Shown in pieces: positions 9,664 to 33,346 of a DNA stretch of 37,943 nt. This stretch comes from a virus: positions 1-37,943 of the IMG/VR virus record IMGVR_UViG_3300049203_000108. One strand, given 5' to 3'. Positions within the stretch are counted from its first letter, which is position 1. Each line of letters starts with the position of its first letter. The notes under the pieces are model-generated. The model was given only the letters and a program-made list of their open reading frames with translations, searched no databases and was not told the DNA's origin. The translations under genes were made by a program, and so were the position numbers.

Positions 9664-9751
9664 AAATGCGGGCTACAGGGGTGTATGCGTGTAACCTTGG
9701 AGATGGCACACGTCACACCTCTCTCCTCTAGCGCATTTCAAATCAGGGAGA
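9664..9751 (+). ncRNA. Foldable leader RNA or small RNA before the packaging operon
   Basis: The outer stem pairs AAATGCG (9664-9670) with CGCATTT (9732-9738). An inner stem pairs GGTGT (9680-9684) with ACACC (9715-9719) and CGTGT (9688-9692) with ACACG (9708-9712). Its 15-nt loop contains CCTTGGAGATGGC. TCTCC at 9722-9726 can pair either with GGAGA in that loop (9699-9703) or with the next gene's ribosome site GGAGA (9747-9751). The loop plus one stem base is the exact 14-base complement of 25474-25487. Folding is by eye, not computed. Confidence 0.45.
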
Positions 9752-9758
9752 CATGTTA

Positions 9759-10031
9759 ATGCGTCTGCAAAGTAAGCTTACGGCAATACTTATTGCTCTA
9801 CTATTTGTGCTACTGGCTCTCAATCCAACATCAATGATGATTGCAGTAAGCTTGATTAGCACGGTTGCTCTGTTTGGGTTTATCGAGTTTTTAGAGCGAG
9901 CAAAGATTGATCAAATTGAAGAGCTTAAAACTCTTATCGCAAAGCACGGCGAATCAGTTGAAGACTCGATTAAGAAGACAAACGAGCGCCTTGATTCCAT
10001 TCGCTTAAGCAAAATCGTAGGTGGCCGATGA
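9759..10031 (+). CDS. Membrane protein with two hydrophobic segments and coiled-coil tail (90 aa)
   Basis: AGGGAG at 9745-9750 is 8 bases from ATG 9759 but only 2 from ATG 9753, so the later start is preferred. Hydrophobic stretches near residues 8-22 (TAILIALLFVLLALN) and 26-43 (MMIAVSLISTVALFGFIEF) are followed by a charged coiled coil. The layout could suit a holin-like or membrane-anchored phage protein. It lies far from the lysis genes and its function is unknown. It overlaps the ParB-like gene by ATGA. Confidence 0.62.
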   Translation: MRLQSKLTAILIALLFVLLALNPTSMMIAVSLISTVALFGFIEFLERAKIDQIEELKTLIAKHGESVEDSIKKTNERLDSIRLSKIVGGR

Positions 10032-10534
10032 TTGTACACTGCGCTCACACAGAGATGGTCGATCTTGATTTGCTAGTGCCTCACCCGCAGAACGCAAACA
10101 AACATACCGAGCGCCAAATCCAGATGCTTGCTAAGATAATGAAGCATCAAGGATGGCGGCACCCGATTACAGTCTCGAATCGCTCTGGATTCATCGTGGC
10201 AGGCCACGGACGGCTCATGGCTGCCAAACTTAACGGCTGGACACATGCGCCTGTAGACCGCCAAGATTTTGATACTGAAGCAGACGAGTATGCACATTTA
10301 ATCGCTGACAACAAAATCGCTGAGCTCGCTGAGACTGATCTTTCGATGGTCAACCTTGCGGTCATGGATCTCGGTCCCGACTTTGATTTAGAGCTCTTAG
10401 GTATTCCTGATTTTGTAGTCGAGCCAATCGAGAAACTCCCTGAAGTCGAAAACACATCGCAAGAGCTCAACGAATCAGACTTCCAAGATTTCCAGCACGA
10501 ATGTCCTAAATGCGGGTTTGAGTGGAATGATTAA
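10028..10534 (+). CDS. ParB/Srx-like domain protein with C-terminal zinc finger (168 aa)
   Basis: Residues about 10-95 carry the ParB-type core: LVPHPQNANKHTERQIQML, then HPITVSNRSGFIVAGHGRLMAAKLNGW, containing the G-x-GR-x2-A-x-K signature. The C-terminus has C-x2-C (HECPKCGFEWND), half a zinc site. Stand-alone ParB-like domains of this kind accompany DNA methyltransferases in many phages and are proposed to act on DNA or as nucleotide-binding partners. Here the gene overlaps the C5 methyltransferase by 8 bases, which supports joint action. It is not a partition ParB, since no ParA is present. Confidence 0.8.
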   Translation: MIVHCAHTEMVDLDLLVPHPQNANKHTERQIQMLAKIMKHQGWRHPITVSNRSGFIVAGHGRLMAAKLNGWTHAPVDRQDFDTEADEYAHLIADNKIAELAETDLSMVNLAVMDLGPDFDLELLGIPDFVVEPIEKLPEVENTSQELNESDFQDFQHECPKCGFEWND

Positions 10535-11579
10535 ACTTCGTAGAGGTCCCTGGAAACTATCTGAACTCATCGATGTACCAAAGAATGGACGCAAGGTTTT
10601 TTCGTGTTTCCACTGTGGCGGCGGCTCAACGATGGGCTACAAGCTCGCAGGATTTGAGGTCCTGGGCGGTGTTGAAATCGATCCGCAAATGATGGCCATA
10701 TATAAAGCCAATCATAACCCGAAATATTCCTATTTAATGGGCGTTCAGCACTTCAATAAGATTCCGCGGAACGAGATTCCAAAGGAACTTTTTGACCTGG
10801 ATATTTTAGATGGCAGCCCGCCTTGCTCGAGCTTTTCGACAGCTGGATCCCGGGAAAAAGCTTGGGGCACAAAAAAGAAATTCAGAGAAGGCCAGGCCGA
10901 GCAGGTGCTCGATGATTTGTTTTTTCATTTCATTGAAACGGCTCGAATCCTACAGCCAAAGGTTGTCGTTGCTGAAAACGTTAAGGGTCTCGTTATCGGC
11001 AAAGCCAAAGGTTACGTAAAACAGATTTTCAATCTATTCAAAGTTGCTGGCTATGACTGCCAGTTATTTTTGCTCAATGCGGCCTTTATGGGAGTTCCTC
11101 AAAGACGTGAACGCACTGTGTTTGTTGCGCGCCGCTCTGATTTAAAGCTCCCAAAAATAGAAATGAAATTTTCCGAAGATCCAATATCAATGGAAAAATG
11201 TTTTGTTGGTATTGATCCGCTTGGCAAAACACTTTCACCCGATCAGCTGAAGTGGTGGGAATTGTGTAAGCCTGGAAATGCTTTCTCTTCAGTACATCCA
11301 AAAAAACATTGGTTCCAAGCATTCAAGCTAGATCCGGGCGGAGTTGCGCCAACACTTACTGCCAGCGGCGGCAATTCGGAACCCTTTCATTGGTCTGCAC
11401 CAAGGAAAATATCAGATGCTGGAATGCTAAGGATTCAGTCGTTTCCAGACGACTACAACGCTGGAGAGCTAGGTGCCAAATACATATGCGGAATGTCCGT
11501 TCCGCCATTCATGATGCAAAGAATTGCACATCAAATCGATGTACAGCTTCTATCAAAAATTGGCGGCAAAAATGTCTAG
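10527..11579 (+). CDS. DNA (cytosine-5)-methyltransferase
   Basis: The 350-aa enzyme transfers methyl groups from S-adenosylmethionine to cytosine in DNA. Motifs in order: motif I FSCFHCGGGSTMGYKLAGF, a divergent AdoMet loop; motif IV DGSPPCSSFS with catalytic Cys100; motif VI VVVAENVKGL; motif VIII QRRERTVFVA; a target-recognition region about 215-290; and the closing RIQSFPDDY block. ATG 10527 is chosen in an ATGATTAA overlap. No restriction endonuclease is adjacent, so it is an orphan enzyme, probably protecting phage DNA from host restriction or marking it for packaging. Confidence 0.93.
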   Translation: MIKLRRGPWKLSELIDVPKNGRKVFSCFHCGGGSTMGYKLAGFEVLGGVEIDPQMMAIYKANHNPKYSYLMGVQHFNKIPRNEIPKELFDLDILDGSPPCSSFSTAGSREKAWGTKKKFREGQAEQVLDDLFFHFIETARILQPKVVVAENVKGLVIGKAKGYVKQIFNLFKVAGYDCQLFLLNAAFMGVPQRRERTVFVARRSDLKLPKIEMKFSEDPISMEKCFVGIDPLGKTLSPDQLKWWELCKPGNAFSSVHPKKHWFQAFKLDPGGVAPTLTASGGNSEPFHWSAPRKISDAGMLRIQSFPDDYNAGELGAKYICGMSVPPFMMQRIAHQIDVQLLSKIGGKNV

Positions 11580-11964
11580 ACCGCTCCTCGAAGTCGACAT
11601 GACAGAACTCCAAAAGCTCATGCAGTTTCGCCCGACGAAAAAGGACGCGGCGGCTTTCTTTAATGTATCTGAGGACACGATTGAGCGCAGGATTCGTGAG
11701 CTAGAGGACCTTACTTACGAAGAGTTTAAAGAGAAGTACTCGGTTAAGCGCAGGATTGCTCGTAGACAGAAGCTCGAAGAGATGGCGATGAAGGGAAATA
11801 TCGCAGCTCTTATTTATTTGGATAAAAAAGAAACTGGCGATCCGGATCAGCCGCCGCCAGCGGTGATTAATAACATGAATGTGACGCCTGAGACGCTAAA
11901 GGATTTAGTTAAAATCGCTCGCGGCACACCACAAGACGTAAAGGACGAAGAGGATCAAGGATGA
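11572..11964 (+). CDS. terS: Putative terminase small subunit
   Basis: The 130-aa protein has a helix-turn-helix near residues 18-42 (PTKKDAAAFFNVSEDTIERR), then a long helix (EKYSVKRRIARRQKLEEM). The segment MKGNIAALIYLDKKETGD is a form of the block seen in phage TerS proteins (A-x2-GN-x-A-x-L-I-x-L-x-K). ATG 11572 overlaps the methyltransferase stop by 8 bases. It would recognise the pac or cos site and load TerL. It is separated from TerL by 2.8 kb of other genes, which is unusual. Confidence 0.72.
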   Translation: MSRPLLEVDMTELQKLMQFRPTKKDAAAFFNVSEDTIERRIRELEDLTYEEFKEKYSVKRRIARRQKLEEMAMKGNIAALIYLDKKETGDPDQPPPAVINNMNVTPETLKDLVKIARGTPQDVKDEEDQG

Positions 11965-12743
11965 TCGGAGTAATTGGGATTGGTGTTGTAGGGCACGCGG
12001 TATATCAGGGCTTTAAGCAAGCTAAGATGCAGGTCTTTGCATACGACAAATACAAGCCAGAGTTTAATGAGCTATCAAAGATGTTCTCGGCTCGCGTGAT
12101 TTTCGTTTGCGTCCCCACGCCAACAGTAAACGGAAGACAAGATCTAACTGCACTCGAAGATACGTTTCAAATGCTCTCAGACATCGGCTTTAAAGGTGTC
12201 ATTTGCGTCAAATCAACGGTGCTACCTGGCACAACACAAAAGCTATCGGCTAAGTATGACTTGGTAAAAGTCGTACATAACCCAGAGTTTTTAACTGCGG
12301 CAAAACCGTTTGAGGATTTCATGAATCAACCGGCAGTCGTACTCGGCGGACATCCAAACTATACGCTTGATGTCGCAAATGCCTATCGCAGAGCGGGCTT
12401 TACGAACATCGTTGAGCTCCCTGAGGCCAGAGCATCTGAGCTTGTTAAGTACATGCACAATTTATTTTTGAGCGTGAAAGTGTCCTTCTTAAACGAATTC
12501 TACGACGCCTGTGAATCAATGAAGGTTGATTATGAGCTGGTTAGACACGTCACTACTATTTTTGGCGGCATTGGTCATGGTCACACTATGGTCCCTGGCC
12601 CTGATGGTAAGCGTGGTTTTGGCGGCATGTGTTTTCCGAAAGACACTGAAGCTTTTTCGACCTTCGCAAAAGACCGAGGCGTCAAAATGGATGTTCTAGA
12701 GGCTGCGATCATTGGCAATAAACGGAGACGCGATGATGTCTGA
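11961..12743 (+). CDS. UDP-glucose/GDP-mannose dehydrogenase-family protein lacking the C-terminal domain
   Basis: The 260-aa protein has an N-terminal NAD-binding Rossmann domain (GVIGIGVVGHAV at 3-14) and VCVPTP, KSTVLPGT and NPEFLTAA blocks. A central helix carries Lys163 and Asn167 (ELVKYMHN), and catalytic Cys224 lies in GGMCFPKD. These are the oxidation residues of UDP-sugar 6-dehydrogenases. Family members are about 390-450 aa; this one stops where the C-terminal UDP-sugar-binding domain would begin. It may act on another substrate or need a partner. It lies between TerS and TerL with a glycosyltransferase, suggesting a sugar-modification cassette. Confidence 0.82.
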   Translation: MIGVIGIGVVGHAVYQGFKQAKMQVFAYDKYKPEFNELSKMFSARVIFVCVPTPTVNGRQDLTALEDTFQMLSDIGFKGVICVKSTVLPGTTQKLSAKYDLVKVVHNPEFLTAAKPFEDFMNQPAVVLGGHPNYTLDVANAYRRAGFTNIVELPEARASELVKYMHNLFLSVKVSFLNEFYDACESMKVDYELVRHVTTIFGGIGHGHTMVPGPDGKRGFGGMCFPKDTEAFSTFAKDRGVKMDVLEAAIIGNKRRRDDV

Positions 12744-12918
12744 AAACGTGTGTGCATTTTTTGCGATTGTTGGAATTCTTGCCTTAACACTTGCCATATA
12801 TCTGCTTGGTGTTTTCGCGGCGGACGAGCAATACGAGAAAGAAATCGTGCGCGGCAATTTAATTATGGCTGAAGGCAATATGTATCGCTGTGAGCAAATT
12901 AAAGAGGCTAGCCGATGA
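12733..12918 (+). CDS. Small membrane protein (61 aa)
   Basis: ATG 12733 is chosen because GGAG lies 6 bases upstream. Residues about 8-30 (FFAIVGILALTLAIYLLGVFA) form a transmembrane helix, followed by a charged helix. It overlaps the dehydrogenase by 11 bases and the glycosyltransferase by ATGA, so the three are co-translated. It could anchor the sugar enzymes or be a separate membrane factor. Confidence 0.65.
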   Translation: MMSENVCAFFAIVGILALTLAIYLLGVFAADEQYEKEIVRGNLIMAEGNMYRCEQIKEASR

Positions 12919-13928
12919 CTGATGAATGGCAGCACGTACGAACGAAAGACGTAAAGCCTATCGATCTATCGAGAGTGCATGTTGTGACGATGATATCAAA
13001 CGTCGCACGTTTTCGCTCTCGCTATGATGCTTATCGCAGGTTTGCAAAACACATGCACGATAGTGGCGCACAGCTAACCACGGTTGAAGTTGCATACGGT
13101 AAGCGTGAGTTTGAGGTCACAGACAAAGACAATCCAAGGCACGTGCAACTGCGCACAGAGCATGAGGAGTTGTGGTTAAAAGAGCCAGCTTGGAATATTG
13201 GCCTAAGATCACTTCCTCAAGATTGGCAATACGTCATCTTTTTAGATGCCGATATTACTTTTACTAATAATCTTTGGTTATCCGAGACAGTGCATCAGCT
13301 GCAGACTTACATGGTCGTGCAACCATTTGCGCATGCGCTAGATATGGGGCCGCAACATGAAGTTATTCAAAAGCATAATGGCTTTGCTTGGTCGTATCAC
13401 CAGAACATGTTTCAAGCGCCGCAAGGAGCAGGCACTGGCGGTTACTATGGATCAGAGCCAGGCAGACCCTTTTGGCATCCTGGTTACGGGATTGCCTTTA
13501 GACGCGAATGTTTTGAGGGAGGCGGCCTTGAGGGCCTACTTACGACGGGAATCCTTGGGAGCGGCGATCATCACATGTGGCTCGCCCTCATCGGAGAAGC
13601 GCATAGAAGTTTGCCAGGAAAAATCAGTGATGGATATCGAAAGCAAGTCTTATCATGGCAAGCGGATGCAGAGAGAGTTGTTAAACGCGACATCGGCTAT
13701 ACTCCTGGAACGATACTCCACACCTTCGGCGGATCAAAGCGTAAGCGGTTCTACGTTGAGCGATGGTCGATTCTAGAAGAACAAGAATTTAATCCAGATA
13801 CAGACCTGCGAACTGATTGGCAGGGCTTACCTCAGCTTGTCGTAACAAACGATAGGCAGAGAAAGCTGCGCGATCTTTGTCGCGCTTATTTTAGAGCAAG
13901 AGATGAGGACAATCCGAATATTGATTAA
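12915..13928 (+). CDS. Glycosyltransferase-like protein, GT-A type (337 aa)
   Basis: An N-terminal nucleotide-sugar fold is suggested by VHVVTMISNVARFRSRYDAY and a D-x-D motif, Asp111-Ala-Asp113 (YVIFLDADITF), which would bind metal and nucleotide sugar. Downstream elements are WHPGYGIAFRRECFE, GSGDHHMW with a likely base, and ILHTFGGSKRKRFYVERW with the closing FNPDTDLRTDWQGL. This C-terminal block is typical of a family of phage and giant-virus GT-A proteins. Together with the dehydrogenase it may modify phage DNA, virion proteins or host surface glycans. The acceptor is unknown. Confidence 0.72.
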   Translation: MTDEWQHVRTKDVKPIDLSRVHVVTMISNVARFRSRYDAYRRFAKHMHDSGAQLTTVEVAYGKREFEVTDKDNPRHVQLRTEHEELWLKEPAWNIGLRSLPQDWQYVIFLDADITFTNNLWLSETVHQLQTYMVVQPFAHALDMGPQHEVIQKHNGFAWSYHQNMFQAPQGAGTGGYYGSEPGRPFWHPGYGIAFRRECFEGGGLEGLLTTGILGSGDHHMWLALIGEAHRSLPGKISDGYRKQVLSWQADAERVVKRDIGYTPGTILHTFGGSKRKRFYVERWSILEEQEFNPDTDLRTDWQGLPQLVVTNDRQRKLRDLCRAYFRARDEDNPNID

Positions 13929-14099
13929 CTGGCCTTGGGCATAATGTACGTGAAGGCGTCGTGCGGAGTGTAGCGATGGCAAGGTCAGTTCTAAACGACC
14001 ATTGTTGCACATCCTGACGTGTGTGTGAGTCCCCGAACACTCGAAATGTAACGACGCTATCGGGGCTACTTTGAAACGGAAATTAAAAGGAGATGAGTA
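13929..14099 (+). other. 171-bp structured intergenic region
   Basis: No gene is seen. CTGGCCTTG (13929-13937) can pair with CAAGGTCAG (13980-13988; one G-U), and CCCCGA (14031-14036) with TCGGGG (14060-14065). An AAAAGGAGATG ribosome site precedes 14100. No clear promoter or T-run terminator was found. It may be a leader or small structured RNA between the sugar cassette and the TerL block. Confidence 0.45.
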
Positions 14100-14543
14100 A
14101 TGAATGATTTAAAAATCCTGGTCGATAAAGAGATCGGTAACGACACAGAGCAAACGCGCATGAATATGCTCAAGTACGTAAACTACGGTCGACAATTGCA
14201 GCAACAAGAGTCTGGCCTCATGACCAAAGAGCAAGTTGATCTCATGCTTAAAATGCAGGCCGAGAATATTTTGGCAGAGATCGGCGTTGTCATGCTCAAG
14301 ACAGCCGAAGCTCAGCGCGAAGTTGAGATGGTTTATGAGGATCAGGCGTTTGAGAAAATTAAAACGCAAGGCTTCGATATTAACGGCGACAATATTTCGA
14401 TGTTGCTTGCTCAATTCGAAGAGCTACTTAAGACAACTGACGAAAAGCATACCGAGATCATCAAAACAATCCGCGAGCCAGGTCTTCAATCAATCCGTGA
14501 GAAATACTTAGGCGTACAAAGTGAAAATCAGCCAAGCGCTTGA
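14100..14543 (+). CDS. Hypothetical helical protein (147 aa)
   Basis: This soluble, almost all-helical protein (residues about 20-140) has a strong ribosome site (AAAAGGAGATGAGTA). It overlaps the next gene by 23 bases. Its position before TerL suggests a packaging-accessory role, but no family is recognised. Confidence 0.68.
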   Translation: MNDLKILVDKEIGNDTEQTRMNMLKYVNYGRQLQQQESGLMTKEQVDLMLKMQAENILAEIGVVMLKTAEAQREVEMVYEDQAFEKIKTQGFDINGDNISMLLAQFEELLKTTDEKHTEIIKTIREPGLQSIREKYLGVQSENQPSA

Positions 14544-14763
14544 GTTTTTAGAAGACTGCTTTGATGAATTTGGCGATCTCGACATCGTAAACCTTGCCTA
14601 CAATGAAGAGGGCGAGGTTGTTGTCGAGCATGGCTTTGGCTTTAATGCCATCTCGGTTGAGGATCTAAAAACGAAAAAGACGAGAAAGTTTGTAGCCTTC
14701 GTTAATGCTCTGGTCGGTGACGACGGCATTATCCCGGCCAGTGCACCCAGGGGTAAGCATTGA
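14521..14763 (+). CDS. Small conserved phage protein (80 aa), GTG start
   Basis: The pattern MKISQALEFLEDCFDEFGDLDIV is that of a common small phage family (short helix, then G-D-x-x-V strand). GTG 14521 lies inside the preceding gene, and its stop overlaps the TerL ATG (TGATG). The function is unknown. It recalls the gene at 8235. Confidence 0.62.
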   Translation: MKISQALEFLEDCFDEFGDLDIVNLAYNEEGEVVVEHGFGFNAISVEDLKTKKTRKFVAFVNALVGDDGIIPASAPRGKH

Positions 14764-16178
14764 TGTCATTAAACGCTGAGGAGATCGCAGCAAGAGAGAT
14801 TCTCTCGGCCAATGGCATTTACGGTCCATGGTATTTGCGACCATCGCAACTAGATATTTATGATTTACTGATTAGCGATAAAAACCCATTTATCGAGGCC
14901 TCGCGCCGTTTTGGTAAAACGACATCGATTATCGCTTTCGTAATGGAACAGCTACAAGCGAATCCAGGTTGGATTTGTCGATGGTGCGAACCATGGAAGT
15001 TTCAGGCGCGACAAATCGTAAAACCAATTATTGCAAAGATGCAGCGCTTTACGCCAAGAGATCGGCAATTTAAATGGACCACTGAGGATTCCGTCTACAA
15101 GCATCCAAATGGATCATTGTTTTATTTGGTCGGCGTAAACGACGATGGCGGTGAGTCGGCTCGGGGACCAGCAAGCAATATTATCGTCGCCGATGAGTAT
15201 GGCTCATGGAAGGATGCGCGATACATCATAAACGACATCTTGCGTCCGCAATTGCAGGGCCAAGAGGGCCGCTGGATGATCCGCACGTCGACGCCGCCAC
15301 CAGACTTGGATCATATCTTTTACGATGAGCGCGAGATTGCTATACGCAAAAAACGCTATATCAAAAAAATCATTTACGACAACGAGGCGCTTACCGAAGA
15401 GGAACTCTTAGAGATTATCGAGGAGTCCGGCGGCGCTGACTCTGAAACGTTTCGTCGTGAGTATCTCTGTGAGGATGTCATCGAGGCCAAGATGCAAGTC
15501 TTGCCTGAATACTCTGACACAGAAAACGTTGTGCCTGATGATTATCCTCGGCCACAGTTCTTTACGCCATACATCGCAGGCGACTCAGGCGCCGATGACA
15601 ATACGGCATTGCTATTTGGCTATTATGACTTCGAGAAAGACGAGATCGTAATTGAGCGTGAGATGATCGAAAATGGAATGACAACCAAAGAGATCATCAA
15701 AGAGGGAAAGAAAATAGAGTCTGAGCTTTGGGGAGATGTTAAGCCGCATAAGCGCGTCTACGATGCTCCAAAGCAACTCATCTACGATATATTTGTTGAA
15801 TACAAATGGGGCGTCATCATGCCCGACAAGGCCGATAAGACGGCTGCCGTGCACCTGCTAAGAAACCAAATTCAGTCGCGCAAATTTAAGATCAAAGAAA
15901 GTTGCACTGGTTTGCGTCGGCAGATGCGCGTTGGTCGTTGGAAAGACGAAAAGAAAACTGATTTCCAGCGCTCAGAAGGCCTAGGCCACCTTGACGCTAT
16001 AGCAGCAGGCATTTACTTTAATAGAGCAATTGACAGGAAGTTGAACCCTAGACCGCATAACTACGGGTACGACCGCGAAACACAAATGATTAACCCGCAC
16101 GCCATCTCGCGAGGTTCCACTGAAGACGCAATAGCGAAACTCTTCAGTGCGAAACTTAAAGCGAGAGGGCGGCGTTGA
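14763..16178 (+). CDS. terL: Terminase large subunit
   Basis: The 471-aa packaging motor has an N-terminal ATPase with Walker A at residues 47-54 (SRRFGKTT) and Walker B with Asp144-Glu145 (IIVADEYG). The C-terminal RNase H-like nuclease has Asp274 (AGDSGADD) and Asp411 (GHLDAIAAG). The length is normal for the family. ATG 14763 overlaps the previous stop; a TTG directly upstream (14760) is ignored. It docks on the portal encoded next and cuts concatemeric phage DNA. Confidence 0.93.
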   Translation: MSLNAEEIAAREILSANGIYGPWYLRPSQLDIYDLLISDKNPFIEASRRFGKTTSIIAFVMEQLQANPGWICRWCEPWKFQARQIVKPIIAKMQRFTPRDRQFKWTTEDSVYKHPNGSLFYLVGVNDDGGESARGPASNIIVADEYGSWKDARYIINDILRPQLQGQEGRWMIRTSTPPPDLDHIFYDEREIAIRKKRYIKKIIYDNEALTEEELLEIIEESGGADSETFRREYLCEDVIEAKMQVLPEYSDTENVVPDDYPRPQFFTPYIAGDSGADDNTALLFGYYDFEKDEIVIEREMIENGMTTKEIIKEGKKIESELWGDVKPHKRVYDAPKQLIYDIFVEYKWGVIMPDKADKTAAVHLLRNQIQSRKFKIKESCTGLRRQMRVGRWKDEKKTDFQRSEGLGHLDAIAAGIYFNRAIDRKLNPRPHNYGYDRETQMINPHAISRGSTEDAIAKLFSAKLKARGRR

Positions 16179-18232: not shown

Positions 18233-18236
18233 TTCG

Positions 18237-18404
18237 ATGCGAGTTTACGGCAGTGATCTAAAGCATACGAAGGTCGTTTGTTCTGAGTGTGGGGAGACAA
18301 TCCTGCAAGGCAAGCGACCGCAAAATAAAAAAGTAACTTACTCAGTTTGCGGGAAATGCAGGCGAGACAAAGAGAATTCAATTCGGAGGAAAGTAGATGA
18401 GTGA
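18237..18404 (+). CDS. Small zinc-ribbon protein (55 aa)
   Basis: ATG 18237 begins 4 bases after the portal stop. The product carries CSEC and CGKC separated by about 23 residues, a four-Cys zinc ribbon, in a basic context. The ribosome site is weak; GTG 18222 is an alternative start. It ends 8 bases inside the scaffold gene. The function is unknown; small zinc ribbons next to portal genes are common in phages. Confidence 0.6.
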   Translation: MRVYGSDLKHTKVVCSECGETILQGKRPQNKKVTYSVCGKCRRDKENSIRRKVDE

Positions 18405-19449: not shown

Positions 19450-19458
19450 AACCAACTT

Positions 19459-19546
19459 TAGAGCGCGATTCCGCAAGTCTTAAGCTCTAGGGCCAAAACA
19501 AATTTTAACTTAAGTGCATTTGCCATCTCCATGCGCGCAATGGAGA
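19459..19546 (+). promoter_or_regulatory. Coat-gene leader with ribosome-site-masking hairpin
   Basis: TAGAGC (19459-19464) pairs with GCTCTA (19484-19489). Further on, TCTCCAT (19526-19532) pairs perfectly with ATGGAGA (19540-19546) around a 7-nt loop, burying the coat ribosome site GGAG. The TGCCATCTCC at 19521-19530 is shared with two other late leaders. Confidence 0.5.
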
Positions 19547-19552
19547 CCTCTC

Positions 19553-20776
19553 ATGGCTGATGTAGCTGAGAACCTAAACGCCTTACACAAAACCGTGTAC
19601 AATGATGGCGTACCTGAACTCGTTCCTAATATCGCAGTCCTTCAAAAAGACATTAAATTTGAGCCAGGCAAAAAAACTGGCGACTACTTCGAAGCAGCTG
19701 TTCGCTTGGCTCTGCCAAACGGCTTCACGCACGAAGTTTCAGACGGCACAGCTGGCGTTTACTCGTTAAACGACGCTAAAGCCGGCACACAAAAGAAAGC
19801 GAAAGTTTACGGCTACCAAACCGTCCTTCGCGATCAACTCTCTTACGATGACGCGGCAAAAGCAGCTGGCGGCAAGCAAGCATATAAAGAAGGAACATCG
19901 TTTTTCTTCGAAGGTATGCAGCAAGCAGCACGCAAGCGCGCTGAAACACAGCTCCTTTACGGTGGCTCATCAATCGGCGAGGTTTTGACTTACACTGGCG
20001 GCGATCCTTCAGTTGTAATCAAATTGGCTGAGTGGGCTCCTGGTATCTGGTCGGGCATGCTCGGCGCTGAGATCGACGTACACTCTGGCTCAACAAGCAC
20101 AGTGCGCGGATCAGTCACAATCGCAGCAATCGACATCGAAAACCGCAAGCTCACTTTGAGCGGCACAGTTACTGGCTGCGCAGCTAACGACAAAATTTAC
20201 TTCAAAGGCGCTTACGGCAAAGAGATGACTGGTGTTCACGGCATCCTTACCAACACTGGCTCTTTGTTCAACATCTCGGCTGCGACTTACGAGCTTTGGA
20301 AAGCAAACAACGTTGCCATCACTGGCGCGCTTTCTTTCAAAGCAGTTAAAAAGGCGATTGCTAAAGCTGTAGGTAAAGGCCTCATGGAAGACGTAAACCT
20401 TTACGTTAACCCGCTCGGTTGGGATGACTTGGCTGAGGACATCTCTAGCCTTCGCACGACTGATAAAGGTGACATCAAGCGCGTTGAAATCGGTCATGAG
20501 GAGATCGTCTACGTTTCTCAAAACGGTAAGACAATCATCAAGCCTCACGCGATGGTTAAAGAGGGTTACGCATACGGCTTGTGCATGCCTACATGGCACC
20601 GCATCGGCGCATGCGACTTCCAAATGGGTGTTCCGGGCGTGGACGAAGGAAACGTGTTCTTCCACTTGGCTTCTAAAGCAGGTTTCGAAGCACGCGGTTT
20701 CATGAACCAAGCGATCTACTCTGAGAGCCCAGGTAAATCGTTCTACATCTCAGGCATCGTTAACACGACAGCTTAA
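19553..20776 (+). CDS. Major capsid (coat) protein, P22-like (407 aa)
   Basis: Position after the scaffold, length and composition (few Cys, many Gly/Ala) fit a P22-type HK97-fold coat protein. The protein opens with MADVAENLNALHK, followed by VPELVPNIAVLQKDI. An inserted beta-rich domain is likely around residues 165-235 (IDVHSGSTSTVRG to KGAYGKEMTG), as the P22 coat has an insertion domain. GGAGA lies 6 bases before ATG 19553, which decides this start over an in-frame ATG at 19514. Codon choice here is noticeably more uniform (AAC, GGC, AAA), consistent with high expression. Confidence 0.85.
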   Translation: MADVAENLNALHKTVYNDGVPELVPNIAVLQKDIKFEPGKKTGDYFEAAVRLALPNGFTHEVSDGTAGVYSLNDAKAGTQKKAKVYGYQTVLRDQLSYDDAAKAAGGKQAYKEGTSFFFEGMQQAARKRAETQLLYGGSSIGEVLTYTGGDPSVVIKLAEWAPGIWSGMLGAEIDVHSGSTSTVRGSVTIAAIDIENRKLTLSGTVTGCAANDKIYFKGAYGKEMTGVHGILTNTGSLFNISAATYELWKANNVAITGALSFKAVKKAIAKAVGKGLMEDVNLYVNPLGWDDLAEDISSLRTTDKGDIKRVEIGHEEIVYVSQNGKTIIKPHAMVKEGYAYGLCMPTWHRIGACDFQMGVPGVDEGNVFFHLASKAGFEARGFMNQAIYSESPGKSFYISGIVNTTA

Positions 20777-23991: not shown

Positions 23992-24015
23992 AAACGCCAT
24001 GGAGGGCGTAAAGTT

Positions 24016-24276: not shown

Positions 24277-24278
24277 GA

Positions 24279-24506
24279 ATGATGAACAACAAATTAGGCC
24301 TTCGCCAAAGATTGCTTGAGAAGCTTCTCGATGTTTTCGCTGAGTTGCCAGATGCAGAAGAGGCAAAGCCAGAAGGCGCAAGCCTTGAGGTTATGGCTGT
24401 AGAGGGCGAGCAACCTGAGGGTGACGAGCTCGATCTATCGAGCGAGGGCGAGACTGAGATGCCTGAGGGTGAGTTGCCAGAGAAACTTAAAAACTTGAAA
24501 GGCTAA
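24279..24506 (+). CDS. Acidic low-complexity protein (75 aa)
   Basis: A basic helical start (KLGLRQRLLEKLLDVFAE) is followed by a Glu/Gly/Pro-rich acidic tail with repeated PEG(E) elements. ATG 24279 is preferred because AAGGGG is 7 bases upstream; ATG 24273 and 24282 are also in frame. No family is recognised. Confidence 0.55.
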   Translation: MMNNKLGLRQRLLEKLLDVFAELPDAEEAKPEGASLEVMAVEGEQPEGDELDLSSEGETEMPEGELPEKLKNLKG

Positions 24507-24512
24507 TAAGCC

Positions 24513-25448: not shown

Positions 25449-25473
25449 AAAATAAATCTTGTCCCGCAGTTTT

Positions 25474-25497
25474 TGCCATCTCCAAGGCTTGAGATAA
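25474..25497 (+). promoter_or_regulatory. Leader element TGCCATCTCCAAGG with hairpin before the gp10-like gene
   Basis: ATCTC (25478-25482) can pair with GAGAT (25491-25495), placing AAGG in the loop. The whole TGCCATCTCCAAGG (25474-25487) is the exact complement of 9695-9708. Confidence 0.5.
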
Positions 25498-27993
25498 GTG
25501 GGCGATAAGATAACAAAATGTCTGGGGCTTGTTTCCCAGTACAATCCGCTAACGGTGGCGCCTGGTGCGCTACTTAAGGCGAATGATTGCATGATCCGCA
25601 GGGAGCATATCCTTGAGGATCGTCGCGGTCATAAAGTCTATGCCGAGCTCTCAAACGACATCACGCAGTTTTTAACTTACCAAAATAAAGTCATCGCACA
25701 TGAGGGCACAGCCCTTAAATACGATGATGGCGCAGGTACATTTGCCGCTTACAGCGGCTCTTATTCAGCGCCTACAAATTCTCGGGTTAGATTTGCTGAG
25801 GCATTCTCAAACCTCTACGCCACAACAAGCCTAGGCGTAAAAGTATTTTCAAACGTCACGGGCACAGCCGGCCGCTTAGCCGGCGCACCTCGCGCACTTG
25901 ATCCAAGCTACTCTCTTACCGGCGTTGCTGGATTTTTAGATAATAACGAGCAATGCGCGTATCGCCTTTTAATTCAGCGAACCGATGCTAATGACAACGT
26001 AATTAGGGGCTATCCTTCGCAGCGTCTTTGGGTTGTAAACTCAGCCGGCGGCGCAAGAAACGTCATTCTCACCATGTATTTGCCAAGCGAGTGCATAGCG
26101 GGTGACGTAATTAAGGTTTATCGCACTGAAGCCCAAACTGGTGTTGCGTCCGATACCTCGGGCGATGAGATGGGCCTTGTCTACCAATACGCTGCCACAT
26201 CGACCGACATTTCAAACGGCTATGTGAGCTTCACTGATTCAGTAACCGATGATTTGCGTGGCGCGACTATTTACACAGCGCCAAGCCAAGAGGGTATCGC
26301 GCAAGCAAACGAGCGTCCGCCTTTAGCTAAGGACGTTGCGCTCTATAAAGACAATTTCCTCATTTATGCAAACGTTCAGACAAAGCAGCGCTTATTTATC
26401 TCACTTGTCGGTACATCGGGCCTATCGGGCCGCACGATTACTTTGGGCGGCGTAACTTACAACTTTGGCGCATCTGAGATTCTATCAGGCGGCGGAAGTC
26501 CGCAAGTGTTAGTGAGCGCAACAGGCGTTGCGGCAGTCGACATTGACGAAACCGCACGCTCGCTTGTGCGAGTCATCAATCGTTATGCATCGAACACGAC
26601 TGTTTATGCATACTACTTAACTGGCCCTAGTGATTTGCCAGGTCAAATCATGATCGAGGAGCGCGGCGTGGGTGCTGCCGCATTCACTGTGCAATCATCT
26701 GACACGACGATTGCTGGAATGTTCTTCCCATCTCCGCCAGTGAGCCCTGCGACGAATTCAGAATCAACGAGCACAAATTCAATTCAGAAAAACGCGCTTT
26801 ATTTCTCTAAGTCCAGAGAGCCCGAGCATGTGCCGGCACTCAATTACGTTTTTGCTGGCAGCGCGAATGCTGAGATTTTACGCATTATAGCCTTAAGAGA
26901 TTCTGTCATTATCTTAAAAGAGGACGGGGTTTTCCGTTTAACTGGCGAGACGCCGCAAAGCTTCTCGGTCGTAAAGGTCGACGATACTGTTTTCTGTGCA
27001 GCCGCAAATTCAGTCGTAAAGCTTGCGAACCAAGTCTTTATGCTCTCAAACCAGGGCGTTGTTGCGATCTCTGAGAGCGGGGCTGAGGTCATCTCTCGTG
27101 AGATTAGCCCGAACGTCTTGCCTCTACTTACTGTGACTGATCTTGCCGATATGACGGCAGCTTTAGGCTATGAGTCTGAGGGCTGTTATTTCCTATCGAC
27201 CATTACGGCGCTCACCGATGAGGTTGCAACGCAAACTCTCGTTTACAACATTTATACGCGCACATGGGTTCGCCACACATATGCATTTGTCGCAGGCATT
27301 GTGGAAAAGCGTGTAGACAAAATGTATTTCGCAAAGCCCGATGAGTCGACAGTCTACATTGAGCGCAAATCCTTTACCGATGCTGATTACGCCGATCCAG
27401 AGTCGAGCATTACGATTACCGCAATCGATGGCGAGACAGTTGATTTTACTATCGCTGGCACAACGCCATCTGTCGGCTGGACAATCGCACAAGGTACCAC
27501 AGAGCTTGCAATAGCAGAGATGGTTTCAATCTCTGGCGGGTACCGCGCAACACTTGAGGCGTCTTTACCAGATGATTGGGCAGTTGGTGCGGCAACAATC
27601 TATCCGCCGGTCGGAATGGATGTTGAATGGCATGCGATCACAGGCGGTGCTCCAGACCAAATCAAGCAATGCCCGGTTGCGGCCGTACTTGGCGACGATA
27701 CGTTATCAGACAACTCAGCTACTCAACTGACTTTTACTTTTAGAACCAATTTCGATTCTGAAATTGATGAGGTCAGCATTGTGCAAGATCGCGCAAGCTG
27801 GGGTTCTGCATGGGGCACTAGCCCCTGGGGCGGCGGTGCGGATCCAGTCGGTTATCCAACGTACGTGCCACAAAATAAGCAGATGTTTACGCGTCTCACT
27901 TTCGGCGTGAAGCATATTTATGCACGACAAAAAGCCGTCATTGCGGGCTGCGCATTTGAGTATGCGGGAGCTGCGACAAGGATTGGTCGATGA
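25498..27993 (+). CDS. Tail stabilisation protein, P22 gp10-like (831 aa), GTG start
   Basis: An in-frame TAA directly before GTG 25498 fixes the earliest possible start. Beta-propeller-like repeats are suggested by alternating strand patterns, for instance LNYVFAGSANAEILRIIALR followed by DSVIILKEDGVFRLTGE, the signature of gp10-type tail proteins. Residues about 290-400 hold an inserted module (GRTITLGGVTYNFGASE), and 650-700 another beta insertion. P22 gp10 is about 470 aa, so this protein is much longer. It is expected to close the portal channel and carry the fibre or needle. Confidence 0.75.
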   Translation: MGDKITKCLGLVSQYNPLTVAPGALLKANDCMIRREHILEDRRGHKVYAELSNDITQFLTYQNKVIAHEGTALKYDDGAGTFAAYSGSYSAPTNSRVRFAEAFSNLYATTSLGVKVFSNVTGTAGRLAGAPRALDPSYSLTGVAGFLDNNEQCAYRLLIQRTDANDNVIRGYPSQRLWVVNSAGGARNVILTMYLPSECIAGDVIKVYRTEAQTGVASDTSGDEMGLVYQYAATSTDISNGYVSFTDSVTDDLRGATIYTAPSQEGIAQANERPPLAKDVALYKDNFLIYANVQTKQRLFISLVGTSGLSGRTITLGGVTYNFGASEILSGGGSPQVLVSATGVAAVDIDETARSLVRVINRYASNTTVYAYYLTGPSDLPGQIMIEERGVGAAAFTVQSSDTTIAGMFFPSPPVSPATNSESTSTNSIQKNALYFSKSREPEHVPALNYVFAGSANAEILRIIALRDSVIILKEDGVFRLTGETPQSFSVVKVDDTVFCAAANSVVKLANQVFMLSNQGVVAISESGAEVISREISPNVLPLLTVTDLADMTAALGYESEGCYFLSTITALTDEVATQTLVYNIYTRTWVRHTYAFVAGIVEKRVDKMYFAKPDESTVYIERKSFTDADYADPESSITITAIDGETVDFTIAGTTPSVGWTIAQGTTELAIAEMVSISGGYRATLEASLPDDWAVGAATIYPPVGMDVEWHAITGGAPDQIKQCPVAAVLGDDTLSDNSATQLTFTFRTNFDSEIDEVSIVQDRASWGSAWGTSPWGGGADPVGYPTYVPQNKQMFTRLTFGVKHIYARQKAVIAGCAFEYAGAATRIGR

Positions 27994-28376
27994 AGCTGGG
28001 ATTAATTAGTCGCATTACAAATGAATCTCTCGGCAACGCTAAAGACGTGCCGAAGTGGTTTCAAATGTCGCTCGTTGTGCTCAATGACTTTATCGAAAAA
28101 GTCGGCAAGGCACTGCTCGGGAATCTCACGTTTGCAGATAACTTCTACTGCAAAACGGTAACGCAAGAATTTGAGAGCGGCGTTGAAGCAGAAGTAAGTC
28201 CTAGGAGAAATCCCGGCGACTCGGTTCGCGCAAGCGGCGTGCTCCCACTTAATTGCGGCGGCTTAACTTTAGATAAATTTAAATGGCAGAGAAAAGATAA
28301 CGGCAACGTTGGCGTGACTTTCACTTTCGATGGTGGCGGTACGGCAACTTGCTCGATTTTGATTTTATTGGAGTAG
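27990..28376 (+). CDS. Putative virion protein (128 aa)
   Basis: The pattern VPKWFQMSLVVLNDFIEKVGKALLGNLTFADNF (given here as two blocks, VPKWFQMSLVVLNDFIEKV and ALLGNLTFADNF) is typical of a small protein found after tail genes in podophages. The C-terminal half is a beta-sandwich-like domain (VGVTFTFDGGGTATCSI). It overlaps gp10-like by ATGA. Confidence 0.6.
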   Translation: MKLGLISRITNESLGNAKDVPKWFQMSLVVLNDFIEKVGKALLGNLTFADNFYCKTVTQEFESGVEAEVSPRRNPGDSVRASGVLPLNCGGLTLDKFKWQRKDNGNVGVTFTFDGGGTATCSILILLE

Positions 28377-28378
28377 AC

Positions 28379-29392
28379 ATGGCTTTTATCAATGATGATG
28401 ACAAGCTCTTAGAGAATCAGCAGAACGACCCGCAAAACTCATTAGGCGGCGGATCTGCATTCGTTGGTGCATCGGGCGGTGCTGATGTTGGTGGCGGGCA
28501 AGTCTCGCATGCAGGCGTCGGTAAAGGCGGAACGGGCGGTTGGACGAATATCCAAAGCTATCTCAACGCAAACAAAAACAACAACTCAACCGCGAACACC
28601 ATCAATAGCCAATACGGCTCGGCACTCGCTGAGGATGAGTCAAAAATACAGAACGAATCAACAAAGGCAAGATCGGATGCTGAGGGACAGCGCAATTCAA
28701 TGCGCTCACTCTCTGATAACCTTAATAATAATATCAGCACAGCAATGGGTGGCGATCAGCAGACCAAAGATAGTATTGCTAATCAGTACCGCACAGCTTT
28801 TAGCCAAGGTTACCAGGGCCCGCAAAGCTACTCGGCACAAATGAGCTCCAAGTCGCAAGATTACGGCTCTGATTTAAAGAAAAACTTTGGCGACTTCCTT
28901 GGTTCGTTCTACAGCCGCGCAACCAACGGCGCGAACATGTCGACGGGCCAACGTACTTTGCAGAATCAGCTTGATACAAATAGCGAGTCAGCTGCGAATG
29001 CATACAGCGACCAGGCTGCTCGCTACAGAGCTTTAGAAAATCTAGCTCTATCAAAGAACCAAGAAACCAACGACGCGATCAACAGCGCTCGCACTGATTA
29101 TCAGACAACTCACGACACGCTAAAGGGTGATCTTGAGGCGGCATCGAGTTTGACTGGCCCCAAGGTTGACATAAATCGCACGAATACGATTCGCAGCTTC
29201 CTTGGTCTTGATCCGATTGCAGCGCCAGAAAGCTCATCAACCGGCAATTTACCGCAATGGTGGGATTTCCAAGGCCCTAGTTACACACAAAATATACGCA
29301 ATCAGGACCTGGTTAACGGAACAGTTACACCAGGAAATGAAGCGGCAATTGATTCGCTCTACGAAGAAACTGGCTTAAAGAGGGTTAAATAA
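28379..29392 (+). CDS. Putative ejection/internal virion protein, Asn/Ser/Gln-rich (337 aa)
   Basis: A Gly-rich N-terminus (GGADVGGGQVSHAGVGKGG) is followed by long Asn/Ser/Gln-rich helices with few hydrophobics. The composition is typical of ejection proteins that leave the particle with DNA. GGAG lies about 6 bases before ATG 28379. It overlaps the next gene as TAATG. Confidence 0.6.
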   Translation: MAFINDDDKLLENQQNDPQNSLGGGSAFVGASGGADVGGGQVSHAGVGKGGTGGWTNIQSYLNANKNNNSTANTINSQYGSALAEDESKIQNESTKARSDAEGQRNSMRSLSDNLNNNISTAMGGDQQTKDSIANQYRTAFSQGYQGPQSYSAQMSSKSQDYGSDLKKNFGDFLGSFYSRATNGANMSTGQRTLQNQLDTNSESAANAYSDQAARYRALENLALSKNQETNDAINSARTDYQTTHDTLKGDLEAASSLTGPKVDINRTNTIRSFLGLDPIAAPESSSTGNLPQWWDFQGPSYTQNIRNQDLVNGTVTPGNEAAIDSLYEETGLKRVK

Positions 29393-30204
29393 TGGGATTA
29401 TTTGGACGCAGCAAGAGCGAAAAACAAGCGATGGCTCGTGCGATGCAAATTGCCGAGGATAACGCCGCCTACATGAAGGGCCTTGAGCTCCCAGAGCTTG
29501 AATGGCGTAACTTTACGCCCGAAGAAATGGAAGCAACGACCATCTCTGAAGATCCAGCGTTAAGACAAATTCAACTTCGCGCTCTAGAGAAAATGTCAGG
29601 CCTTGCCGAAACCGGATTGTCAGCAGAAGACGAGCTTGGCTTTTTCAAAGCTCGCCAAGTTGGCGATCAGATGGCTCGCGCCGGAACACAGAACGCGATT
29701 GAAAACGCAGCCGCTCGCGGCGTGGGTGGCTCAGGTTTAGAGTTTGCAATGCGTGAATCAGCAAGCCAAGGCGGAGCACAAAGGGCACAAGAGGCAGCTT
29801 TAGAGCGTGCAGCAGTGTCGGCAAGAGAGCGTGCGCTTGCTAACCAAGCTTATGGTCAAGCGGCTGGCGGTGTTCGCTCGCAAGACTTAGGTGTAAATCA
29901 AGCCAACACGAATATCATTAACCAGTTTAACCAAGCCAATACCACGGCTCGCAACAATGCTCAGATGTACAATCGCGAGCAGGCGAATGCGACGAAGCAA
30001 CAGAATTTCCAAAACGATTTCCAAAAACGTGGCGCCGTGACTGGTGCAAATCAGCAAGTAGCACAAAACTACTTAGCTGATGCAGCCAGCTCAGCAAGCA
30101 ATCGCAATGCAATGATTGGCGCTGGCATTGGCGCAGGGACAGCGATAGCAACTGGTGGCGCAAGCTTATTTGGTGACGCGGCTAAAAAGAAAGCGGGGAC
30201 GTGA
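29392..30204 (+). CDS. Putative ejection/internal virion protein, Ala/Gln-rich (270 aa)
   Basis: An Ala/Gln/Asn-rich helical body (ERALANQAYGQAAGGVRSQD) ends in a Gly-rich hydrophobic segment (IGAGIGAGTAIATGGASLFG), as in membrane-active phage injection proteins. The start overlaps the previous stop. It recalls P22 gp7/gp20 in order and composition, not in recognisable sequence. Confidence 0.62.
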   Translation: MGLFGRSKSEKQAMARAMQIAEDNAAYMKGLELPELEWRNFTPEEMEATTISEDPALRQIQLRALEKMSGLAETGLSAEDELGFFKARQVGDQMARAGTQNAIENAAARGVGGSGLEFAMRESASQGGAQRAQEAALERAAVSARERALANQAYGQAAGGVRSQDLGVNQANTNIINQFNQANTTARNNAQMYNREQANATKQQNFQNDFQKRGAVTGANQQVAQNYLADAASSASNRNAMIGAGIGAGTAIATGGASLFGDAAKKKAGT

Positions 30205-30205
30205 G

Positions 30206-31333
30206 ATGGGTTTCGAGTATGATCCAGAAGAACTAGAAAACGAAGCACGCAAAACGCGTTTACAGAAAACCGCACTTAGCTCTTTAGGTGATGCGGTTAA
30301 CTCGCTTACATCACGTCGCTCGGCGGCTGAGATTTTACTTAATCAGCCAGTGCAAAAATCAACTGCTGGCGATTCTCTAAAGACTTTCGCGCAAAACATG
30401 GAAGATCCATGGGAGCGTCAAAAGAAAACTTACGAGAATTACATCAGTGCGAAAAACGCTGGAAAACTCGAGCGTGAGGATGCTGAGTACTCAGAGAAGA
30501 AAGATCCTAACTCTAAATCATCTAAAGCGCTTCGTTTGCTTGCGCCTCGTTGGGGCATCGCGGTCACTGATGATATGTCTGCACACGATATCGAAAAGAT
30601 GATCGATCCGAGAAAGATGATGGAAACTGAGGCGATTCGTGCGGCTGATAATGCTGAATGGGATCGGCGCTTCTCCAAAGAGTCAGCAGAAAAAGCAAGA
30701 GCTCGCGCCGCTGAAGCGGCAGCAAAAGAAAATGGCCGCACCGAAGGCACTAAGGCAATGGATAAGGATTATGCCAAGGAATATAACGATTGGGTTTCGA
30801 GCGGTAAAAGTACCGTTGAGAAAAACCTTGAGCGCCTACGTAACGCTAAGAAAGTTCTCGAGTCAGAGACTGGTGCTGATTATTCGGGCGGCTTTGTAGG
30901 TCTTGTGCCTGATAAGCTTCGAAAAATTACAAATCCGAACGCAATCGCCACACGCGATGACGTGCGGGCGGCTGCACAGGGAGCGCTAAAGGCAACGCTT
31001 GGTGCGCAGTTCACCGAAAAAGAAGGTGAGCGCATCATGAATCAGGCTTACGACGAGCAATTGCCTCCTGCTGAAAACGCTAAGCGCATTCAAGCAGCAA
31101 TCGACGAGCTCACGAAAAACCAAGGCGTTAATGATTCTCGCGCTCGATTCTGGGAGCAGAACAAAACTCTTAACGGCTTTGAAATGGATCGCGCTCGGCC
31201 AGTACTTGCGGGAACGAATGAAGGCAAAAAGATCAAGAAGACGCAAACGAATCAAAAGACTGGCGAAAAGCGAGTTATTTACGAAGACGGTTCGACCGAA
31301 ATCATTCCCGGCAACGCTACGGCAAGCAGGTAA
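30206..31333 (+). CDS. Putative ejection/internal virion protein (375 aa)
   Basis: ATG 30206 starts 2 bases after the previous stop. The protein is highly charged and helical. The segment LGAQFTEKEGERIMNQAYDE followed by QLPPAENAKRI is a recurring block of podophage internal proteins (A-L-G-x-x-F-T-x-K-E-G). The C-terminus carries a small strand motif (GEKRVIYEDGSTEII). Confidence 0.62.
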   Translation: MGFEYDPEELENEARKTRLQKTALSSLGDAVNSLTSRRSAAEILLNQPVQKSTAGDSLKTFAQNMEDPWERQKKTYENYISAKNAGKLEREDAEYSEKKDPNSKSSKALRLLAPRWGIAVTDDMSAHDIEKMIDPRKMMETEAIRAADNAEWDRRFSKESAEKARARAAEAAAKENGRTEGTKAMDKDYAKEYNDWVSSGKSTVEKNLERLRNAKKVLESETGADYSGGFVGLVPDKLRKITNPNAIATRDDVRAAAQGALKATLGAQFTEKEGERIMNQAYDEQLPPAENAKRIQAAIDELTKNQGVNDSRARFWEQNKTLNGFEMDRARPVLAGTNEGKKIKKTQTNQKTGEKRVIYEDGSTEIIPGNATASR

Positions 31334-31336
31334 TAA

Positions 31337-33220
31337 ATGAGCGATTGGGTTGATGATCCAGAAATTGAAATAGAGACCGAAGAAACCGATTGGGTTGATG
31401 ACAAAGCTCCCGTGCCTCAACCAGAAGAAAGCACAGGAAGGCAACTTGTTCGCGGCGCAATCGATACGGTTGTGCCGGCGCTCGGCGCGATCGGTGGCGG
31501 AGTACTTGGCGCTGGCGCTGGGCCCATCGGCGCGGTCGGCGTAGGCGCTCTAGGCTATGGAATGGGAAAAGAAGGCGCTCGCCATTTAAAGAAACTCATT
31601 CTTGATGATGACACCGATGCAAAAACATACGGTGAGCTCGTTACGCGTCCGCTTGGTGATATGGCTGAGGGTGCGACGTTTGAAATTGGCGGACAAGCTT
31701 TAGGTCAAGGCATTCAGGCGGCAGGCAAAGGTTTTAAGACTGCTGGCGAGGCGCTAGCACCACGCCTTAAAGGCAATGCCGATGACATCATTGCAGCAGC
31801 CAAGCGCCTGGGATTTACGCCGACGCCCGGGATGATCAAAGAGGGCAAAACCCTTCAGGGGCTAGAGTCTACTTTGCAGCAATCGCCTGGTATGGGCGGC
31901 TGGCTTGTTCGTAGACAAACTAAAAAAGCAGTCGAGAAAATGGATGAAGTCCCTCGCTTGCTTTTAAAAGACTCAACGTCTTTAACGCCGCATGAGCTTG
32001 GAAATAAAGTTAAGACCGGCATCGAGCAAACGGTATCAAAGCGCTTCGAGCCACACAGAACGGTCTTTAAAGAGCTAGCCGAGAGTACTCCGCATATTCC
32101 TGTCGGCGAGAAAAGCTTAAGCCGTGTGGCAAAAAATATTGGTGGCTTCGATGAGGTAAGGCTTTTACCTGGCTCGCCAGCGGCAGCGGCAGCAGAAAAA
32201 TATGCTGGCTCACTTGCTGGCGTTCGGTCTGTTAAAGACTTACAAAAAATACGTCAAAACGTAGGCACACGCCTAGGTGATCCTTCGGTTTCAAACGAAG
32301 AAAAAGCTGTGCTCAATGAGATTTACGCAAGGCTTACGCGCCTAGAAGAGAATTCTCTACAGCGTGGCGCGATCGATACCATGCGCGGCTTTGCGCAAAA
32401 GCCTACCGGCAAAACTGGCGACGCATTGGCAGGTGAGGGCGAAGCTCTTGCTAAAGAGTTGCTTGATAAAATGCGTGGTGCAAAAAAAGGCTTCTCGACC
32501 GGTATGGGTGAACTCCGAGAGCTCTCTGGCAACGCTCGTATTCGTGGTAAACTCCACGGGCCGGATAATTTCGTTGAGAAAATCGATGACATCCCAAGCG
32601 AAAAACTAGTCGACCGCCTGTTTCCAATGAATGATCAGCGCTTGCTTGGCTCTGTCGAAAAAACATTCCCAGAGCAGTTTGCTGATTTAAGGCAAGGTAA
32701 GCTTGCGCAAATCCAGCGCGGCTCACTTGATATTAACGGTGTACCGTCATCATCGAAGTTTCTCACTCAGACAAATAAAATTGATCAGTATCCAGAGAGC
32801 ATGAAAATGCTCTTCGGTGATGAAGGCGCTCAGAAGTTCGCGGACTTCAAAACGGCTCGCAGCGCATTCCCAGAGCGGATTGGGCCGAGCGGAACACCGC
32901 AAGGAAATGCATTCTTTAACTTCGCAAATCCGGCAACGCACATAAAAGATGCTGGCAATTATCTCGCATATAAAGCGCTCGACTCAAAGACCGCTGAGAG
33001 GGTTGCTAATTTCCTAATGCGCTCACCAAAGTTTGCAAAAATGGCGCAGGAAAACCCACAAGCGTTTCAGGCTGCCGTAATACAGTTTGGTCAAAAGGTG
33101 CATCCATCTGGTGCGGCCCTACCAAAGGCAGCTGGCACAGAGCGCGGACAAGAGTCGATTGCATCGCAAGAACCAGTTTCAGAAGAGGACGCACAGAACG
33201 CATTTATTGAAGGTAATTAA
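31337..33220 (+). CDS. Large ejection-type virion protein, P22 gp16-like in size (627 aa)
   Basis: An acidic start with a DWVDD repeat is followed by a Gly/Ala-rich hydrophobic segment (about 45-75, GGGVLGAGAGPIGAVGVGAL) that could enter membranes. A long helical body rich in Lys/Glu and a disordered tail come next. P22 gp16 is 609 aa and also ends the ejection set; no sequence signature was recognised. It would help carry DNA across the host envelope. Confidence 0.58.
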   Translation: MSDWVDDPEIEIETEETDWVDDKAPVPQPEESTGRQLVRGAIDTVVPALGAIGGGVLGAGAGPIGAVGVGALGYGMGKEGARHLKKLILDDDTDAKTYGELVTRPLGDMAEGATFEIGGQALGQGIQAAGKGFKTAGEALAPRLKGNADDIIAAAKRLGFTPTPGMIKEGKTLQGLESTLQQSPGMGGWLVRRQTKKAVEKMDEVPRLLLKDSTSLTPHELGNKVKTGIEQTVSKRFEPHRTVFKELAESTPHIPVGEKSLSRVAKNIGGFDEVRLLPGSPAAAAAEKYAGSLAGVRSVKDLQKIRQNVGTRLGDPSVSNEEKAVLNEIYARLTRLEENSLQRGAIDTMRGFAQKPTGKTGDALAGEGEALAKELLDKMRGAKKGFSTGMGELRELSGNARIRGKLHGPDNFVEKIDDIPSEKLVDRLFPMNDQRLLGSVEKTFPEQFADLRQGKLAQIQRGSLDINGVPSSSKFLTQTNKIDQYPESMKMLFGDEGAQKFADFKTARSAFPERIGPSGTPQGNAFFNFANPATHIKDAGNYLAYKALDSKTAERVANFLMRSPKFAKMAQENPQAFQAAVIQFGQKVHPSGAALPKAAGTERGQESIASQEPVSEEDAQNAFIEGN

Positions 33221-33346
33221 ACAGCAGTCCAGTTGACGGTATGCCATATGCTTTCGTACGCTGGATTTCTCAAAAATAGCTCTAAAGGCTTCCGCAAAAG
33301 CCATCTCCTTTTTTCAACCCCCCAAACTTTGGGAAAAGGAGATTTC
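33221..33346 (+). promoter_or_regulatory. Lysis-region leader with 10-bp ribosome-site hairpin
   Basis: ATCTCCTTTT (33303-33312) pairs perfectly with AAAAGGAGAT (33334-33343), hiding the whole ribosome site of the gene at 33347. A small inner CCCAA/TTGGG stem sits in the loop. GCCATCTCC (33300-33308) is shared with other late leaders. TTGACG at 33233-33238 could be a -35 box, but its -10 is poor. Confidence 0.55.

Follow-up and report, generated by a model that had tools for sequence, protein, structure and literature searches.

A predicted phage hairpin whose loop matches tags in several late-gene leaders, a candidate antisense riboregulator

The window, by which we mean the whole stretch of 37,943 nucleotides analysed here (IMG/VR virus record IMGVR_UViG_3300049203_000108), represents a phage from an uncultured group, in which the head protein, the terminase and the gp10-like/connector protein match PHROGs. 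On its + strand, at 9677-9722, lies a predicted hairpin (MFE -20.2 kcal/mol, z -2.6; 2 of 200 shuffles fold equally well) that carries GGAGATGGC in its apical loop at 9699-9707 and is a putative riboregulator, as a small RNA or as a processed late leader. The gene of a small membrane/coiled-coil protein (9759-10031, + strand, with an in-frame ATG also at 9753) follows directly 3' and served as our synteny anchor, with orthologues in the related genomes and contigs G1, G3, G4, G5, L081, L089, L093 and L103; a protein of this type, located before terS/terL, is kept far beyond the tag-bearing phages described below (HMM matches in L048, L154, L141, L118 and others). The interval from the membrane protein to the terminase genes (10028-12743) has ORFs that by eye resemble a ParB-type protein, a C5 DNA methyltransferase and a sugar-nucleotide dehydrogenase. 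Neither a sigma-70-like promoter nor a terminator was seen around 9677-9722, where the host's transcription signals may differ from that consensus, no Rfam covariance model matched the window above its gathering score, and the window has no tRNA gene, unlike G1.

The complement of the hairpin loop, the 9-mer GCCATCTCC, is found on the + strand at 19522, 25475 and 33300 and on the - strand at 9699, and these are exactly the four copies in the window (0.24 expected; 0 of 100 shuffles reach four). All of them lie outside credible genes, the ORFs covering them being spurious GTG/TTG extensions. The three + strand copies, which we refer to as tags, precede the major head protein (coat) gene (tag at 19522-19530; gene at 19553-20776, + strand, starting with ATG, PHROG 14242, E 1.4e-13), the gene of a gp10-like virion/connector protein (tag at 25475-25483; gene at 25498-27993, + strand, starting with GTG, PHROGs 511, 3287 and 578) and the first gene after the 31337 ORF (tag at 33300-33308; ATG at 33347). 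The pairing seed in the hairpin, CCTTGGAGATGGCA (9695-9708, + strand), extends the exact complementarity to 11 bases for the coat leader and 14 for the gp10-like leader, with 9 for the leader of the 33347 gene. When 56 window leaders were compared, 9699 was the sole genome position with a 9-mer complement in three gene leaders, and it also ranked first (z -7.5, the next at -4.5) when every position was scanned blind against four late leaders by nearest-neighbour duplex energy. The initial annotation had reported the four copies and their match lengths of 14, 11 and 9 bases, placed all of them in non-coding DNA and one in the apical loop of a predicted hairpin, and considered such a set unlikely by chance; the whole-window count, the shuffles and the fold bear this out throughout.

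Around the tags, the window leaders are otherwise unrelated in sequence to one another. In the coat leader, the tag enters a 7-bp stem, TCTCCAT/ATGGAGA (19526-19546, + strand), which masks the Shine-Dalgarno GGAGA, and in the leader of the 33347 gene a 15-bp hairpin (33303-33343, + strand; -16.1 kcal/mol, z -2.8) masks AAAAGGAGA, leaving the Shine-Dalgarno with an unpaired probability of 0.01. The proposal that each tag sits in or beside a stem that pairs with the ribosome site thus holds clearly for these two leaders and more weakly for the gp10-like one, where the Shine-Dalgarno, weak in both the window and G1, pairs poorly.

Two partial contigs retain the same tag. In L003 (coat 86% identical), GCCATCTCC stands before the terminase, scaffold and coat genes, with the coat copy at 8400, and in L079 (coat 67%) it stands before coat. 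Beyond the tag, stem and Shine-Dalgarno arm covary, reading TCTCCAT/ATGGAGA in the window, TCTCCGG/CCGGAGA in L003 and ATCTCCT/AGGAGAT in L079. The tag begins with GCC, which most leaders leave out of the stem and which is nevertheless kept, as expected if it paired with the GGC of the hairpin loop. A search for the window hairpin at the DNA level found no match in G1 or L003, as would be expected if only structure and pairing were kept. The L003 contig begins just 3' of the expected hairpin position, and we predict that an L003-like phage should carry GGAGATGGC in a hairpin before its membrane-protein gene. At 3512-3520 of L003 the tag precedes the large terminase gene, and likewise in L082; the window terminase has no such leader.

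Further relatives were collected from IMG/VR and are given here with their gp10 identity to the window phage: G1 (3300037423_002659, 68%), G4 (3300049846_000660, 66%), L103 (3300021061_000047, 57%), G3 (3300028569_002826, 53%) and G5 (3300032308_001441, 53%), in addition to shorter contigs. A search of genome contigs returned no relatives that could give a host or prophage context. The sole annotated relative, a Silvanigrella phage (CP017838.1), was unusable for the pairing test, with 24-28% protein identity and an AT-rich, repeat-rich genome.

In G1, G3 and L103 the architecture recurs with other letters, the loop/tag sequence being GCCATCTCC in the window, CCGGCTCC in G1, TCACACCA in G3 and CCAGCTC in L103, and the hairpins of these three genomes, at 4839 in G1, 4983 in G3 and 5767 in L103, are syntenic counterparts of that in the window. 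None of the G1 leaders has GCCATCTCC; instead, CCGGCTCC occupies the window's three places, namely the leaders of coat (tag at 14598), of gp10 (20612) and of the next gene after the homologue of the 31337 ORF (28445), and its complement GGAGCCGG has a single intergenic copy, in the hairpin directly upstream of a tRNA-Gln gene and the membrane-protein orthologue. This tRNA gene is located at 13716-13791 of L076, between hairpin and membrane-protein gene. The scaffold, coat and gp10 genes of G3, and its counterpart of the third target (tag at 27275), are each preceded by a Shine-Dalgarno hairpin with TCACACCA in the loop, and one TGGTGTGA lies in the hairpin just 5' of the membrane protein, terS and terL; the G3-like contigs L106-L108, from other samples and 99% identical, share this source site as well as the tags before scaffold and coat. 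L103 has TCCAGCTC, found nowhere else in its 21.8 kb, before scaffold and coat and CCAGCTC before gp10, with the complement in the hairpin before the membrane protein. The gp10 leaders of all three thus carry their own tag in the place equivalent to that of the window. Elsewhere in G3, at 2599-4008 in gene orientation (near 2.6-4.0 kb of L105), a 469-residue protein is encoded that is rich in short AQV-type repeats (RAQVGAQV, YAQV).

Every position of each genome was given a score, the total of its exact complement (length over 5) across the scaffold, coat, gp10 and lysis leaders. The genome maximum was 19 in the window, 13 in G1, 15 in G3 and 10 in L103, exceeded at no position in any of the four and falling each time in the 200-nt stretch 5' of the membrane-protein gene. 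Equally good 200-nt windows made up a fraction of 0.0055, 0.0056, 0.0060 and 0.0093, respectively, and the product of the fractions for G1, G3 and L103 (window left out) is ∼3e-7, a value to be read knowing that the phages are related and that the location was learned from the window and G1; the complement scan of G1 likewise came after the discovery in the window and was not fully blind. Complementarity was specific to each phage: leaders set against another phage's region scored 2-5, compared to 10-19 for its own, with same-sense and reversed controls at 1-8 and random 60-mers at 6-8 at most. In duplex energies for the window, G1 and G3, a genome's own loop beat those of the other genomes for 9 of 10 targets. 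A MAFFT alignment of three of the hairpin loci was poor and was left out. What is present in each case is a short complementarity to distant mRNA leaders, 8-14 nt exact, to three or four leaders and from the best site genome-wide. With sequences that differ between the phages, the match cannot be put down to letters inherited from a common ancestor, whereas kept base pairing can account for it; the comparison of the four genomes supports that loop-tag complementarity was maintained through sequence change. The initial annotation had proposed a small RNA or leader acting on late leaders, and had named conservation of the complementarity in relatives among its tests; loop and targets changed together in G1, G3 and L103, at orthologous genes and from a syntenic place, which speaks strongly for that model at the level of sequence.

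The tag has a limited distribution among the relatives. G4 and G5, with the same gene order and at similar distance, have neither a shared tag nor a complement and score 1 and 4 in the syntenic 200-nt region; compared with the tagged relatives, they would point to loss or gain of the system as a whole. No shared tag was found in the leaders present on the L093 contig, in coat relatives at 31-44% identity (L004-L070), whose leaders are plain where the coat start could be read, or in the portal relatives L104-L170 other than the G3-like L105-L108. A k-mer screen against an order-0 background gave no useful signal in AT-rich phages.

We propose that the hairpin at 9677-9722 acts as an antisense riboregulator encoded by the phage, and that its loop pairs with the late-leader tags and thereby turns on the translation of several virion genes, a reading to which we assign a probability of roughly 0.7. 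The hairpin RNA would be a small RNA or the processed 5' leader of the late operon, and its loop would base-pair with the short tag in a few late-gene leaders, in the window those of coat, of the gp10-like gene and of the first gene of the last cluster, to which the relatives would add scaffold or terminase. Most of the tags found in the window, L003 and G1 would form the 5' arm of a hairpin masking the Shine-Dalgarno, so that pairing with the loop would free it and allow several virion genes to be translated jointly. We infer that the hairpin RNA is made, accumulates, acts in trans and activates rather than represses; in G1, processing of the tRNA-Gln would free it.

The sign of the control was considered from predicted folds. 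Shine-Dalgarno sites are more buried in 16 tagged leaders (median unpaired 0.13) than in 104 other leaders (0.42; p 6e-5). With the tag held unpaired, as if bound, their accessibility rises from 0.04 to 0.35 in the window coat leader, from 0.01 to 0.55 in that of the 33347 gene, from 0.04 to 0.75 in L003 coat and from 0.15 to 0.42 in G1 coat, and the G1 lysis leader opens as well. In G3 the gain is small, and only partial melting is expected there, since the tag is mainly in the leader loop; in L103 the value decreases, the scaffold and coat sites being unburied and masking of the tag opening neither. In most tagged leaders of the window, L003 and G1 (and also in L079) the tag itself masks the ribosome site, so pairing should activate translation, and both the burial in tagged leaders and the opening upon release favour activation, which the folds make the probable outcome of hairpin pairing. 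Where the initial annotation had left it at opening or closing of masked sites, opening is thus favoured by the window, L003 and G1 folds, with the negative change in L103 as exception.

The same pairing could have the opposite sign, the hairpin RNA repressing the late leaders by blocking initiation or recruiting RNase until late mRNA titrates it, in which case virion protein synthesis would be delayed until that point. In L103 the scaffold and coat tags lie 5-7 nt upstream of an open Shine-Dalgarno and unpairing them lowers accessibility, in G3 a kissing complex with the tag loop could stabilise the closed leader, and the phage antisense RNAs sar, OOP and PAK_P4as15 are described as repressors in the part of a 2025 review considered here (PMC12197685). 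Repression is the chief competitor of activation; we nevertheless regard it as unlikely, since pairing would remove the mask in the window, L003, L079 and G1, where the tag mostly provides the masking strand itself, and the loop stops short of the Shine-Dalgarno in these leaders. A somewhat less unlikely possibility is that the hairpin acts in cis, as the 5' leader of one long late transcript that pairs with its own downstream leaders as a structural or pacing device. The hairpin shares its strand with the first gene in the window, G3 and L103 and lies at most about 40 nt ahead of it, and the window shows no terminator near it; a single hairpin per transcript, however, could not hold three or four leaders simultaneously, and the tRNA gene interposed in G1 would release it upon processing.

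Explanations that dispense with RNA pairing fare worse. A short motif common to intergenic regions might be the site of a DNA- or RNA-binding protein, such as a late promoter, operator or translational repressor site shared by the leaders and the operon start, an alternative raised in the initial annotation that is now much weakened and seems very improbable to us: the operon-start copy is the reverse complement and in a hairpin in 4 of 4 genomes, at least three changes of specificity would be needed with every site following, nothing promoter-like is conserved upstream of the tag in the window and L003, the leader flanks differ, and a direct-repeat control stays below the antisense score in the hairpin region. 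Chance combined with a generic anti-Shine-Dalgarno sequence has some basis, in that TCTCC is needed to pair with the local GGAGA, GGAGATGG is a Shine-Dalgarno-like word and complements of Shine-Dalgarno words recur in leaders of AT-rich control phages. It can hardly account for the GCC, which is kept and matches the loop from outside the stem in most leaders, for the G3 and L103 tags, which are not anti-Shine-Dalgarno sequences, or for a complementary site that is syntenic in 4 of 4 genomes, with cross-phage leaders scoring 2-5 against 10-19 for own ones, and we consider it extremely unlikely.

Activation by a trans-acting hairpin RNA has precedents in DsrA and RprA acting on rpoS and RNAIII acting on hla, where pairing with the masking strand of the leader frees the ribosome site; the phage system would share this anti-antisense activation, and differ in addressing the phage's own late genes and several targets with one tag. 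Changes of specificity with a preserved target match are known from the antisense hairpin loops that control plasmid copy number, ColE1 RNA I and R1 CopA, which are encoded in cis opposite their target, whereas the phage hairpin is encoded 10-24 kb away from several targets. The closest functional match is found in engineered riboregulators and toehold switches, in which the ribosome site is masked by a leader hairpin and exposed by a trans RNA with complementarity to the masking strand, also in orthogonal pairs (PMC9071393); in contrast to these, with their long toeholds, the phage system is natural and would use one RNA with an 8-14 nt loop seed for three or four leaders, and the G3 and L103 tags are placed differently. 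Among phage-encoded base-pairing RNAs, the portion of the 2025 review considered here covers VpdS, PreS, sar, OOP, aQ, IsrK, 24B_1 and PAK_P4as15, whose targets are host genes, the lysis-lysogeny switch or single or overlapping genes, and describes none of them as a one-loop hub for several structural-gene leaders (PMC12197685). In the open-access literature, we found no such hub RNA, and we file the hairpin/tag system under trans-acting antisense regulation, outside any named family.

The timing of phage late genes is usually credited to transcription, through antiterminators, sigma factors and phage polymerases. There are, in our judgement, even odds that these phages possess a natural late-gene riboregulon, in which one trans RNA with a fast-evolving loop switches the translation of capsid, scaffold, tail and lysis genes by a code private to each phage. 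If true, the control of a set of virion genes by one RNA through base pairing would be a new layer of late-gene control, and a private code might, for example, avoid cross-talk with co-infecting relatives. Engineered riboregulators would then also have a counterpart in nature, and orthogonal RNA switches, four of them here, could be taken ready-made from phages.
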